Shown here piece by piece: positions 9,667 to 13,545 of a DNA stretch of 64,000 nucleotides. The notes under the pieces are model-generated. The model saw only the letters and a program-made list of their open reading frames with translations, was not told where the DNA came from and did no database searches. Position numbers and translations under genes: made by a program. The DNA is from Variovorax gossypii (GTDB lineage Bacteria; Pseudomonadota; Gammaproteobacteria; Burkholderiales; Burkholderiaceae_C): NCBI RefSeq assembly GCF_003965815.1, contig NZ_RXOE01000001.1:1426001-1490000 (forward strand). The letters run 5' to 3'. Within the stretch, counting starts at the first letter, position 1; the number at the start of each line of letters is the position of its first letter.

Positions 9667-11046
9667 ATGAGCCTCCATTCCCGCCTGCAGCAGCGCGCCG
9701 CCGAAGGCCGCCCCATCCGCGTCGGCCTGATCGGCGCCGGCAAGTTCGGCGCGATGTATCTCGCGCAGATTCCGCGCACGCCCGGCGTGCAGCTGGTGGC
9801 GATAGCCGACCTGTCGCCGGACGCGGCCCGCGTCAACCTCGAGCGCGTAGGCTGGCAGCGCGAACGCGCCGCAGCCGCCTCGGTGCATGAGGCGCTGAAG
9901 CTCGGCACCACCTGGATCACCGACGACTGGCAGGCCGTGACGCGCGAGCCTTCCATCGACATCGTGGTCGAGTGCACGGGCAACCCCATCGCCGCCGTGG
10001 ACCACTGCCTCGACGCGTTCGCGCACGGCAAGCACGTGGTGAACGTGACCGTGGAGGCCGACGCTTTCTGCGGCCCGCTGCTCGCGCGCAAGGCGCAGCA
10101 GGCCGGCGTTGTCTATTCGCTGGCCTTCGGCGACCAGCCGGCGCTGATCTGCGACCTGGTCGACTGGGCACGCACCTGCGGCTTTCCGGTGGTGGCGGCC
10201 GGGCGCGGCCACAAGTGGCTGCCGCACTTCACCGAATCGACGCCCGAGACGGTATGGGGCAACTACGGCCTCACGCCCGAGCAGGCGAAGCGCGGCGGGC
10301 TCAACCCCAAGATGTTCAACAGCTTCCTCGACGGCTCCAAGCCTTCGATCGAAAGCTCGGCGGTGGCCAACGCCACCGGGCTCACGGTGCCCTCGGACGG
10401 CCTGCTCTACCCGCCCGCCAGCGTGGAGGACATTCCCTTCGTCACGCGGCCGAAGAGCGAAGGCGGCGTGCTCGAGCGCAAGGGCATGGTCGAGGTGATC
10501 TCCTCGCTGGAAGCCGACGGCCGGAAGATCCCGTACGACATCCGCATGGGCGTGTGGGTCACGGTCGAGGCCGAGACCGACTACATCAGGAACTGCTTCG
10601 AGGAGTACAACGCCCACACCGATCCGAGCGGGCGCTACTTCACGCTCTACAAGCGCTGGCACCTGATCGGGCTCGAAGTGGGCATGTCGGTGGCCAGCGT
10701 CGCTCTGCGCGGCGAGCCCACCGGCGTGGCCACCTGCTGGAATGCCGACGTGGTCGCCACCGCCAAGCGCGACCTCGCCGCCGGCGAGATGCTCGACGGC
10801 GAAGGCGGCTACACCGTCTGGGGCAAGCTGCTGCCGGCCGACCGCTCGCTGCGGCTGGGCGGCCTGCCGCTGGGGCTGGCGCACAACGTCAGGCTGGCGC
10901 GCCCGGTGAAGAAGGGCCAGAGCCTGAGCTGGGCCGACGTGGCCATCGACACCACCACTGCCGCCTACAAGGTACGCAGCGAGATGGAGGCGCTGTTCGC
11001 GCCCCAGGCCCCGGTGCGGGCCCAGACCCAGGCCCAGGCCGCCTGA
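9667..11046 (+). CDS. NAD(P)-dependent oxidoreductase with SAF domain
   Basis: A 459-residue protein. The N-terminal half is a Rossmann domain with GLIGAGKFG at residues 20-28 and a homoserine-dehydrogenase-like layout (VVECTGNP, EADAFCGPLL). The C-terminal part, from about residue 360, resembles an SAF domain (ATAKRDLAAGEMLDGEGG, then VKKGQSLSWADV). Proteins of this build are annotated as SAF oxidoreductases or FlgA-like proteins, and the reaction is generally unknown. A likely role is oxidation of the product of the neighbouring dioxygenase, but that is inferred from the operon only. It is the last gene of the GntR operon; 169 bases separate it from the DGPF gene. Confidence 0.8.
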   Translation: MSLHSRLQQRAAEGRPIRVGLIGAGKFGAMYLAQIPRTPGVQLVAIADLSPDAARVNLERVGWQRERAAAASVHEALKLGTTWITDDWQAVTREPSIDIVVECTGNPIAAVDHCLDAFAHGKHVVNVTVEADAFCGPLLARKAQQAGVVYSLAFGDQPALICDLVDWARTCGFPVVAAGRGHKWLPHFTESTPETVWGNYGLTPEQAKRGGLNPKMFNSFLDGSKPSIESSAVANATGLTVPSDGLLYPPASVEDIPFVTRPKSEGGVLERKGMVEVISSLEADGRKIPYDIRMGVWVTVEAETDYIRNCFEEYNAHTDPSGRYFTLYKRWHLIGLEVGMSVASVALRGEPTGVATCWNADVVATAKRDLAAGEMLDGEGGYTVWGKLLPADRSLRLGGLPLGLAHNVRLARPVKKGQSLSWADVAIDTTTAAYKVRSEMEALFAPQAPVRAQTQAQAA

Positions 11047-11137
11047 CCGCCAGCTGAGAACCCGCCCGTCTCGGTGCAGCCACCGTTGCGCCGGCGGGCG
11101 TTCGCGTAAAAAATATTCTGCTCGGCACGAAAGCCCG

Positions 11138-11164
11138 TGTCGAAATGACCGCCGGCGGGCCGTC
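11138..11164 (+). promoter_or_regulatory. Candidate ECF42-type promoter
   Basis: TGTCGA at 11138-11143 is followed after exactly 17 bases by CGTC at 11161-11164. These words match the -35 TGTCGA and -10 CG(A/T)C reported for ECF42 promoters. It sits 52 bases before the DGPF gene, which is co-transcribed with an ECF42-like sigma gene, so it fits an autoregulated sigma circuit. The spacer contains the palindrome CCGCCGGCGG. Confidence 0.6.
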
Positions 11165-11215
11165 ATTGTGGTGAGCGATCTTGCTCAGCAAGCTTTTCCA
11201 CGACGGAGAAACACC

Positions 11216-11581
11216 ATGCAGTACATGTTGATGTTCTATCAGCCCGCGGCCGAATTCGAGCAACGCGAGGACGCGTCCGCGCAGGCCTACCGGGCCAGCT
11301 GGGTCGCGTATGCCGACGCCGTGCGCCAGTCGGGCATCTCGCTCGGCGGCCACGGCCTCTTCCCTCCCATGACCGGCACCACGCTGCGCGTGCGCGGCGA
11401 CAAGCGCCAGGTGCAGGACGGCCCCTTCGCCGACACCAAGGAACAGCTCGGCGGCTACTTCGTGATCGACGTGCCCGACCTCGACGCCGCGCTCGAATGG
11501 GCGGCGCGCGCGCCCTGCGCGACCAGCGGCGGGGTGGAGGTGCGGCCCGTCTTCGTCGCCACGGCCCTGGCTGCCGCATGA
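11216..11581 (+). CDS. DGPF (YCII-related) domain protein
   Basis: A 121-residue protein with the DGPF signature in VQDGPFADTKEQLGGYFVI and the following helix DLDAALEWAARAP. This YCII-related fold is small and usually dimeric; enzyme activity has not been established for the DGPF group. In many bacteria DGPF genes travel with ECF42 sigma factors and are their main targets, exactly as here: the stop overlaps the sigma start in ATGA. The ATG at 11216 follows a GGAG site, and the predicted ECF42 promoter lies directly upstream. Confidence 0.88.
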   Translation: MQYMLMFYQPAAEFEQREDASAQAYRASWVAYADAVRQSGISLGGHGLFPPMTGTTLRVRGDKRQVQDGPFADTKEQLGGYFVIDVPDLDAALEWAARAPCATSGGVEVRPVFVATALAAA

Positions 11582-12810
11582 ACGACCCGGCGGTCGGCAG
11601 GGCCGCCGAGCGGGCGGCGCGCGAGTCGTATGGCCGGCTGCTGGCCATCCTCTCGGCGCGCACCCATGACATCGCCGCATCGGAAGACGCGCTCGCCGAT
11701 GCCTTCGCCCGCGCGCTCGAACGCTGGCCCGCCGATGGCATTCCTGTGCAGCCCGACGCCTGGCTGCTGAGCGTGGCGCGACACCGCAAGCTCGACGCCT
11801 GGCGCCACAGCCGCGTGCAGGACCAGGCCACCCAGACCCTGCTGCTGCTCGCCGGCGAAGTCGACGACGCCGCCGACGGCAGCAGCGCCATTCCCGACGA
11901 GCGGCTGCGCCTGCTCTTCGTGTGCGCGCATCCTGCCGTCGACGCCGCGGCGCGCGCACCGCTCATGCTGCAGACCGTGCTCGGCCTCGATGCGGCGCGC
12001 ATGGCCGGCGCCTTCCTGACCGCGCCCTCCACGCTCGGCCAGCGGCTGGTGCGCGCCAAGGCCCGCATCCGCGCCGCCGGCGTTCCCTTCGAATACCCGC
12101 AGGCGCGCGACCTGCCGCAGCGGCTGCAGGACGTGCTCGACGGCATCTACGCGGCCTACGGCACGGGCTGGGACGACGTCGACGGCGCCGACGCCCTGCC
12201 CCGCGGCCTCACGACCGAGGCCATCGACCTCTGCCGCATCCTCTGCGGCCTGATGCCGGCCGAGCCCGAGCCGCTGGGCCTGCTGGCGCTGATGCTGTTC
12301 TGCGAGGCCCGCATGGCGGCACGCCGCAGCGACACCGGCGCCTACGTGCCGCTCGACCAACAAGACCCGCTGCGCTGGGACCCTGACCTGCTCGCGGAGG
12401 CGGAGTTCTGCCTGCGCCGTGCGTCGGAAATGAAATCGCTGGGCGCCTACCAGCTCGAGGCAGCGATTCAGTCGGCCCATTGCGAGCGCCGCGTGGGCGC
12501 GCCGGTGCCGCCCGAGGCGCTGGTGTCGCTGTACGAAGGACTGCTGGCGCTGCGCTCCAGCATCGGCGCGCAGGTCAGCCTTGCTTGCGCGCTCGCGAAC
12601 GCGCGCGGCCCCGAGATCGGCCTTCGAGCGCTCGAAGCCATTCCCGCGCAGGACGTGGCGAACTACCAGCCGTATTGGGCGGCGCGCGCCCATCTGCTCG
12701 CGGCCGGCGGTGCACGCTCCGCCGCGCGCCAGGCATTCGACAGGGCCATCGGCCTGAGCACGAACGCCGCCGTGCGCGCGTACCTGCACGCGATGTCGGA
12801 CCGGCTCTGA
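11578..12810 (+). CDS. ECF42-type RNA polymerase sigma factor with TPR-like tail
   Basis: A 410-residue sigma factor. Region 2 covers about residues 10-80 (SYGRLLAILSARTHDIAASE, then DAWLLSVARHRKLDAWR) and region 4 about residues 105-165, ending in the helix-turn-helix GAFLTAPSTLGQRLVRAK. The C-terminal 230 residues are a helical, TPR-like extension (DUF6596 style) typical of the ECF42 group, which has no anti-sigma gene and is thought to be controlled through this tail. Ordinary ECF factors have only about 190 residues. No anti-sigma gene is present here. It is translationally coupled to the DGPF gene and likely drives its own promoter at 11138. The inducing signal is unknown. Confidence 0.9.
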   Translation: MNDPAVGRAAERAARESYGRLLAILSARTHDIAASEDALADAFARALERWPADGIPVQPDAWLLSVARHRKLDAWRHSRVQDQATQTLLLLAGEVDDAADGSSAIPDERLRLLFVCAHPAVDAAARAPLMLQTVLGLDAARMAGAFLTAPSTLGQRLVRAKARIRAAGVPFEYPQARDLPQRLQDVLDGIYAAYGTGWDDVDGADALPRGLTTEAIDLCRILCGLMPAEPEPLGLLALMLFCEARMAARRSDTGAYVPLDQQDPLRWDPDLLAEAEFCLRRASEMKSLGAYQLEAAIQSAHCERRVGAPVPPEALVSLYEGLLALRSSIGAQVSLACALANARGPEIGLRALEAIPAQDVANYQPYWAARAHLLAAGGARSAARQAFDRAIGLSTNAAVRAYLHAMSDRL

Positions 12811-12819
12811 AGCCCGGAC

Positions 12820-13545
12820 CTACTTCGTCGCGTTGAAGGTGCGCGGGAACAGCGCGGCCTGCGATCGGTCGCGCAGCCGATAGCTCATGGCCGGCCGGCC
12901 GAGACTGCCGGTGACCATGCCGGCCTCTTCCATGAAACCACCGTCGAGCATGCGCTTTCGGAAGGCGCTCTTGTCGATGTCGCGGCCCAGCACGACTTCG
13001 TAGGTGTGTTGCAGCGCCGGCAACGTGAACGGCTCCTCCAGCAGGAAGGCCGGCAGCGAGGTGTATTCGACCTTGCTGCGCAGCCGCGCGACCGCCGCAT
13101 CGAGCAGCTCGCCATGATCGAAGGCCAGCCGCTTGCGCGAAGCCGCATCGACCGCGAACCACGCCACCTCGGCCGCATTGGCGCCGCTGCGCAGCTGCAT
13201 CGCCTGCGCGGGGATCAGTGCATAGAAGCAGTGCGTGGCAGACCAGCCCCGAGGGTCGCGCTGCGCTCCGCCCCAACTGCCGAGTTGCTCGAGATAAGGC
13301 GTGATCACGCCGGTCTTCTCGCGCAGCTTGCGCAGCGCGCAGTCGAGCAGCGTCGCGTCCTCGTCGATGTTCACGAAGCCGCCCGGCAATGCCCACTTGC
13401 CGGGAAACGGCTCCTCGCTGTCGGCCGGCCGCTTCACCAGCAGGACCTGCAGGGCTTCGTCGAGCACGGTGAACATCACCACGTCGACCGTGACCAGCGG
13501 ACGCGGGAAGGTCAGTGGCGGGAACTTCGAAGAAGGCTGGTTCAC
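12820..13545 (-). CDS. NrtR-like Nudix-related transcriptional regulator
   Basis: A 241-residue protein with an N-terminal Nudix-like domain (VTVDVVMFTV, then KWALPGGFVN) and a C-terminal winged helix (about residues 150-225), the architecture of NrtR, an NAD-metabolism repressor that senses ADP-ribose or NAD. The Nudix box is degraded: the helix reads RKLREKTG where enzymes have RExxEExG, so two catalytic glutamates are lysines, and the spacing from the Gly-Gly-Phe is two residues longer. It is thus probably a sensor and not a hydrolase. I start it at GTG 13545; a TTG at 13584 would put one operator-like dyad inside the gene. It is divergent from the ADP-ribose operon. Confidence 0.8.
   Translation of the reverse strand: MNQPSSKFPPLTFPRPLVTVDVVMFTVLDEALQVLLVKRPADSEEPFPGKWALPGGFVNIDEDATLLDCALRKLREKTGVITPYLEQLGSWGGAQRDPRGWSATHCFYALIPAQAMQLRSGANAAEVAWFAVDAASRKRLAFDHGELLDAAVARLRSKVEYTSLPAFLLEEPFTLPALQHTYEVVLGRDIDKSAFRKRMLDGGFMEEAGMVTGSLGRPAMSYRLRDRSQAALFPRTFNATK

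Follow-up and report, generated by a model that had tools for sequence, protein, structure and literature searches.

A probable self-driven ECF42 sigma factor operon in Variovorax gossypii and a recurrent hairpin at the predicted start of its transcript

In the window, i.e., the stretch of 64,000 nucleotides of Variovorax gossypii DNA that we analyzed, a gene for a DGPF/YCII-domain protein runs directly into a gene for a sigma factor with a long C-terminal extension. The features of this locus are as follows.

11138 to 11143, forward strand: −35 element TGTCGA, read directly; followed by AA in nearly all orthologues
11144 to 11160, forward strand: 17-nt spacer, read directly
11161 to 11164, forward strand: −10 element CGTC, read directly
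11172 to 11187, forward strand: leader hairpin TGAGCG-ATCT-TGCTCA, where the transcript is predicted to begin
11173, forward strand: predicted transcription start, the ninth base after CGTC, by analogy with SMc01149 of Sinorhizobium meliloti
11204 to 11209, forward strand: probable ribosome-binding site CGGAGA, from the sequence, 6 nt before the ATG
11216 to 11581, forward strand: DGPF/YCII-domain protein, 121 amino acids, with its ATG at 11216 (Pfam YCII, 2.4e-19)
11578 to 12810, forward strand: ECF42-type sigma factor, 410 amino acids (Pfam and homologue comparison)
11626 to 11811, forward strand: sigma region 2, residues 17 to 78 (Pfam Sigma70_r2, 6e-07, above cut-off)
12025 to 12078, forward strand: putative sigma-4 recognition helix, residues 150 to 167 (a helix in the AlphaFold2 model; the recognition role is our reading)
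12103 to 12807, forward strand: DUF6596 and TPR-like C-terminal extension, residues 176 to 410 (Pfam DUF6596, 1.4e-27, and model)

The stop codon of the DGPF gene and the start codon of the sigma gene share the ATGA at 11578-11581, as read directly from the sequence. A single solved relative of the DGPF protein was found, namely 1s7i (PA1349, 1.5e-18), and the sigma protein is 98% identical to a protein of Variovorax sp. 679. The upstream neighbor is a DRL-type oxidoreductase with a SAF domain (about 9667-11046, forward strand), and the downstream neighbor, convergent with the sigma gene, is an NrtR-type NUDIX protein (about 12820-13545, reverse strand). An anti-sigma gene was sought in these two flanking genes only, and neither is one. 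A sigma-70 promoter scan gave a single weak site, on the opposite strand. About 25 to 30 nt 5′ of the −35 element there is an A-tract (11108-11113), possibly an UP-like element; its columns show mostly A, which 23 to 31 of 45 relatives have per column.

Pfam gave no sigma-4 match in the sigma factor, and the NCBIfam sigma models spanning residues 14 to 166, a stretch in which helices are modeled, were weak and all far below cut-off. A PDB sequence search returned a single weak sigma-2 match. The tail forms a TPR-like helical array in the AlphaFold2 model, and its structural matches in the PDB were mostly TPR proteins, the best with a Z of 13.9 over 201 residues, which is close to the level of about 13 below which this tool can be unspecific for helical repeats. 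A YCII/DGPF gene lies on the same strand in 153 of 159 ECF42-type loci of at least 5 kb, a redundant set that leaves out five DGPF-less relatives on loci of less than 5 kb. According to section 15 of PMC8999054, ECF42 factors combine a long TPR extension with a YCII neighbor, as in the window locus. This locus is an ECF42 locus, i.e., one of a known kind, and an earlier sequence-only reading, which had named the ECF42 identity, the coupling to a DGPF gene, and the TPR-like tail, was borne out on all three by Sigma70_r2, DUF6596, YCII, the ATGA overlap, and the AlphaFold2 model. The features of ECF41 were not found. The −35 element in ECF41 is TGTCACA, with a spacer of 16 ± 1 (PMC3426412), not TGTCGA. 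ECF41 factors are also described in PMC9023288 as having a SnoaL-like tail, unlike the TPR-like tail found here, and Pfam gave no SnoaL match in the sigma factor up to E = 1, with DUF6596 found there instead.

The same reading had placed TGTCGA-N17-CGTC ahead of the DGPF gene and matched these words to the ECF42 form TGTCGA/CGWC. Direct reading at 11138-11164 confirmed the former, and the sequence, other ECF42 loci, and the orthologues agree with the latter; the Streptomyces ECF42 consensus is TGTCGA with CGAC or CGTC. The bare pattern is not rare, its loose form (N15-19) occurring 8 times in the window versus 2.4 expected, and it is conservation that lifts the promoter above chance. Among 100 sampled genomes of the same genus we found 77 orthologous sigma genes (matches at at least 67% identity), and 76 of them have TGTCGAAA-N15-CGTC upstream. 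The sole exception, genome G018 (locus L053), carries TGTCGAAG. The word was likewise present in 45/45 loci of a further comparison (L034 and L064-L107; L098 and L099 are metagenome-assembled genomes labeled only Proteobacteria), with AT after CGTC in 45/45, and the 40 bases 5′ of it agreed in only 12 to 31 of 45 per column. The invariance of TGTCGAA/CGTC in these 45 loci is partly built in, because they were found by searching that word; the informative part is that none of the 45 lacks it and that in L064-L107 it lies 70 to 94 nt before the DGPF start.

The spacer length was nearly constant in a larger set of 287 ECF42 loci, which is redundant in that L034-L063 and L064-L107 overlap in genomes. 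With spacers of 14 to 20 allowed, it was 17 in 224 of the 236 candidate sites, and the reversed control words yielded 10 scattered sites. A hold-out set from another order of the same phylum, outside the window's class, was drawn from 30 given loci and 60 fetched places, with L347 dropped as already used; in these 89 loci, 88 with a sigma gene, the spacer was 17 in 71 of 78 candidate sites versus 5 for the control. The searched stretch held no N17 site in 66/287 loci and in 25/88 hold-out sigma loci, in some of them because the fetched DNA was short. The 221 loci with an N17 site came down to 195 unique ones and, at 85% sigma identity, to 111 representatives, in which the base at −31 was A in 78, G in 25, and C or T in 4 each; a few had another base at −32. 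G at −31 occurred only with CGTC (25/25), and A with either CGTC (52) or CGAC (26).

The promoter words had also been put forward as a means of finding the other members of the regulon, and this use failed. A scan of the genome, which is 6.3 Mb at 86% completeness, with TGTCGA-N16-18-CGWC returned 310 matches versus 143 for the reversed control. The strict word TGTCGAAA-N15-CGTC has one site in this genome, that of its own operon, and 0 in the control. Across the 100 same-genus genomes it gave 126 matches versus 65 for the reversed control, and these consist of the 76 orthologous promoters, one promoter fossil (see below), and 49 others, so that the 49 matches outside the operon do not rise above the 65 of the control. 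Since the strict word matches only its own operon above control, the regulon is, by this measure, the operon itself, although weaker sites may exist elsewhere in the genome.

The intermediate pattern TGTCGA-N17-CGTC had eight sites in the genome versus 5 in the control, i.e., seven besides the operon. Five of these (L014, L158, L161, L162, and L163) were rejected as regulon sites, since by computed placement each falls within the Pfam domain of some coding frame. The other two may be further sites of the sigma factor; L159 is antisense to the N-terminal region of a gene for a binding protein, before its domain, and L160 is antisense to a hydrolase/PhaC-like frame, at its extreme end. An open frame over a site proves nothing by itself, because the operon's own promoter also lies under long frames. 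Another site of the strict word, common to 11 genomes of the genus (in 2 of them with one change), was also rejected; in the one of the 11 that was inspected (L165), it lies antisense inside the C-terminal domain of an NAD kinase.

The genome has three ECF42 loci, the window locus included. The second (L263, C1:1621500-1627500) has one copy of TGTCGG-N17-CGTCCTTGG upstream of its sigma gene and another upstream of a gene for a short-chain dehydrogenase (adh_short, 6.9e-26), and the third (L174, on C7) carries TGTCGATCC-N14-CGAC ahead of two DGPF genes and a sigma gene. With three such factors in one cell, and with TGTCGA common to the window word and to the TGTCGATCC..CGAC of the C7 locus, one or both of the other factors might also read the window promoter, which would make the loop cross-regulated rather than private. 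We consider this unlikely, as TGTCGAAA-N15-CGTC occurs once in the genome and TGTCGG-N17-CGTCCTTGG at exactly two sites (C1:1623840-1623871 and 1625616-1625647), both at its own locus. The sigma proteins point the same way, in that among the 111 representatives every Glu at this protein position (residue 154) is paired with G at −31 (21/21) and the window protein has Gly there (12037-12039), a pairing of which phylogeny may be the cause. A private promoter is thus the preferred reading, and, as the strict word separates the window circuit from the two related ones in the same cell, cross-talk between them can be tested.

Residue 154 presumably corresponds to K170 of SigW. Among the 111 representatives, Lys at this position went with C at −31 in 4/4, A was paired with mostly small residues, and G was found, besides Glu, with Arg, Gln, Gly, and Ala once each. 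In the hold-out set, Glu went with G in 23 of 24 cases, the exception being one TGTCGC, and Ala or Ser accompanied TGTCAG at two sites. A tree test of residue 154 versus base −31 found only 3 independent pairs and no significance, and among distant relatives only, the column ranked 10th and 43rd of 396 in two rankings, in the first of which it was outranked by position 158 (3rd). K170 of SigW contacts the template base at −31 (PMC6713349, section 11). A specificity code at residue 154 may be regarded as a lead from sequence comparison, not a result.

The transcription start was predicted from the S. meliloti ECF42 factor RpoE10. The mapped start of its target SMc01149 is the ninth base after CGTC (PMC6180224, Table 1 and footnote), the printed SMb20475 sequence ends at the same distance after CGTC, and two RpoE10 targets have the N17 geometry by our own count from the sequences printed in that paper. 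The start here was accordingly put at about 11173.

The relatives in Variovorax suggest what this promoter is kept for. In four genomes (G004, G042, G071, and G073; loci L166, L168, L169, and L170), the DGPF gene is cut to a frame of 14 codons, as read by eye, whose stop overlaps the GTG start of the sigma gene, with the promoter and leader kept. In a fifth (G014), only the first 22 aligned DGPF residues remain, and the promoter and sigma gene are again kept; this stub, with a changed hairpin arm, is represented by L167, in one genome. The first four resemble a single shared event, making probably two events in 5/77 genomes. In G099, a deletion has removed almost the entire operon, so that the beginning of the DGPF gene is fused to the last part of the sigma gene, and the −35 and −10 words survive as a promoter fossil. 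This fossil lies at about 1977-2189 of L164 (G099:C1:4242500-4247500), and its hairpin core is altered.

That the promoter and sigma gene persist in genomes that have lost DGPF (5/77) favors autoregulation. It also speaks against DGPF as a partner that the sigma factor cannot do without, provided that no other DGPF protein fills its place; section 15 of PMC8999054 suggests a role for the YCII-domain protein in ECF42 regulation. The proposal of an autoregulated circuit thus gained comparative support, from promoter conservation and from the promoter and sigma gene outlasting DGPF, and on these grounds such a circuit may be assumed. Autoregulation is not universal in ECF42, since overexpressed RpoE10 raised six genes in S. 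meliloti, with its own operon's first gene not among them (PMC6180224, section 12). The window factor might in the same way not drive its own operon in vivo, with the words used under special conditions or by another factor. We regard this as quite improbable, because the ATG of the DGPF gene lies 51 nt from CGTC and because of the DGPF-less loci just described, and the S. meliloti authors give as a possible reason for their result that the motif predicted ahead of that operon and the operon's mapped start overlap (same section). Drive of its own operon is therefore the reading that we prefer for the window factor.

At the predicted start, the window transcript would read GAGCG-AUCU-UGCUC. The whole leader folds with a z of −1.74, and 12 of 200 shuffles folded just as stably. 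Within the window's own group, GAGC-N5/6-GCTC was found in 42 of 44 distinct leaders (83/85 loci), with its first base 8 or 9 nt after CGTC. Only the G099 fossil, with GAAC for GAGC, and G014, with a changed 3′ arm, depart from it; both are damaged-DGPF loci, and the other four DGPF-less loci keep the hairpin. Shifted pairings left 28 to 54% of cells paired versus 84%. No covariation was shown within the own-group hairpin (33 of the 44 distinct leaders), where the core is invariant and covariation therefore cannot be judged. Rfam gave no match that reached a gathering score.

Outside the own group, we counted stems of at least 6 starting 5 to 14 nt after the −10 word, with loops of 3 to 8, a criterion set on the first set of loci and written down before any hold-out locus was analyzed and before the later ones among them were fetched. 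Such a stem was found in 21 of 65 leaders with A at −31, versus a mean of 3.0 and a maximum of 9 in shuffles and 4 in an upstream control, and stem starts peaked at 5 to 14 nt after the −10 word, with 6 and 15 per 5-nt bin and at most 6 in the other bins. The excess persisted with distance: 14/31 loci with a sigma factor less than 60% identical (shuffle mean 1.63, maximum 5; one row of this set is from the window's own group) and 8/14 at less than 50% (mean 0.56, maximum 3). It was also found in the hold-out, with 14/35 (mean 1.78, maximum 5) and, at falling identity, 8/25 and 5/18, counts that were never reached in 200 shuffles, the upstream control giving 1 each. With G at −31, the hairpin was found in 1/25 leaders of the first set (shuffles 0.7, upstream 2) and in 0/17 of the hold-out (shuffles 0.6, upstream 4), and these leaders are mostly too short to hold it. 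With C or T, 2/8 leaders had a stem (shuffle mean 0.2), too few to use.

For +9 to +44, RNAfold gave a z below −1.5 for 19/65 A-type leaders outside the group (upstream control, 3), for only 1/13 own-group representatives (control, 1), and for 3/25 leaders with G at −31 (control, 6). The start-site hairpin is a recurrent part of TGTCGA-type ECF42 operons but far from a universal one, as the majority of leaders from other genera do not pass the strict criterion.

Alternatively, this palindrome could be a DNA operator for a repressor. As in a binding site, its core GAGC..GCTC is the same in 42/44 own-group leaders with no covariation in the 33 tested, but in other lineages the stems differ and the loop varies while the start stays nearly the same, which is easier to reconcile with RNA than with a dimer site of fixed spacing; this argument is only suggestive, because the loop range of 3 to 8 was set by the search. 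We therefore hold the operator to be possible yet rather doubtful, and a role as an RNA hairpin, in message stability or early elongation, to be the likeliest reading.

Taken together, we consider it likely that the window locus is a self-driven ECF42 one-component sigma circuit with its operon as the sole recognizable strict target and with a leader hairpin. In the mechanism that we propose, the tail of the sigma factor would sense a signal, and this fused TPR-like tail, not a neighboring anti-sigma factor, would control the sigma factor. The latter would then guide RNA polymerase to TGTCGAAA-N15-CGTC at 11138-11164. One coupled transcript, probably beginning at about 11173 with a short hairpin, would encode both the DGPF protein and the sigma factor and so close a positive loop, and the hairpin would most likely protect or tune the 5′ end of the message.

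More generally, there may be an even chance that, across lineages, ECF42 transcripts with A at −31 open with a hairpin conserved in place rather than in sequence, as a functional part of the loop, and that DGPF is not an obligatory partner. If so, the hairpin would set the gain of the positive loop through message lifetime or early elongation, the TGTCGG branch, with mostly short leaders, would do without it, and the Variovorax loop could outlive its DGPF gene. The Variovorax series amounts to a set of natural deletion mutants, with the intact operon, the promoter and sigma gene without DGPF, and the promoter fossil, and it bears on what ECF42 factors sense and on whether DGPF is a partner. 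Should the start-site hairpin prove functional, it would add a new common element to a large bacterial family of one-component sigma circuits. A literature search found no paper on hairpins in ECF42 leaders within its coverage, mostly outside subscription journals, and the hairpin and the DGPF-less derivatives go beyond the descriptions found there.

Stem-loops at the 5′ terminus of an mRNA can slow its decay, the ompA leader being an example. The window hairpin resembles them in its predicted position at or near the first transcribed nucleotide and differs from them in recurring, with differing sequences, at a single promoter class in several lineages. Known ECF42 factors are Sven_0747, Sven_4377, and Sven_7131 of Streptomyces venezuelae, ECF-10 of Pseudomonas putida, and RpoE10 of S. 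meliloti. Compared to these, the window word is sharpened to TGTCGAAA..CGTC-AT with one strict genomic site, and some Variovorax relatives keep the circuit without DGPF. According to section 12 of PMC6180224, ECF42 factors have no identifiable anti-sigma factor nearby. The targets of RpoE10 carry TGTCGG-N17-CGTC (same paper), whereas the window word has TGTCGA, and RpoE10 did not raise its own operon. Similar to ECF41, the window factor has a fused C-terminal domain that would serve in its control. ECF41 neighbors encode a carboxymuconolactone decarboxylase, an oxidoreductase, or an epimerase (PMC3426412), and the window neighbor is DGPF. According to the same paper, the only known and detectable targets of ECF41 are the genes next to it, which have a conserved promoter of their own, and the strict regulon of the window sigma factor is likewise its own operon.
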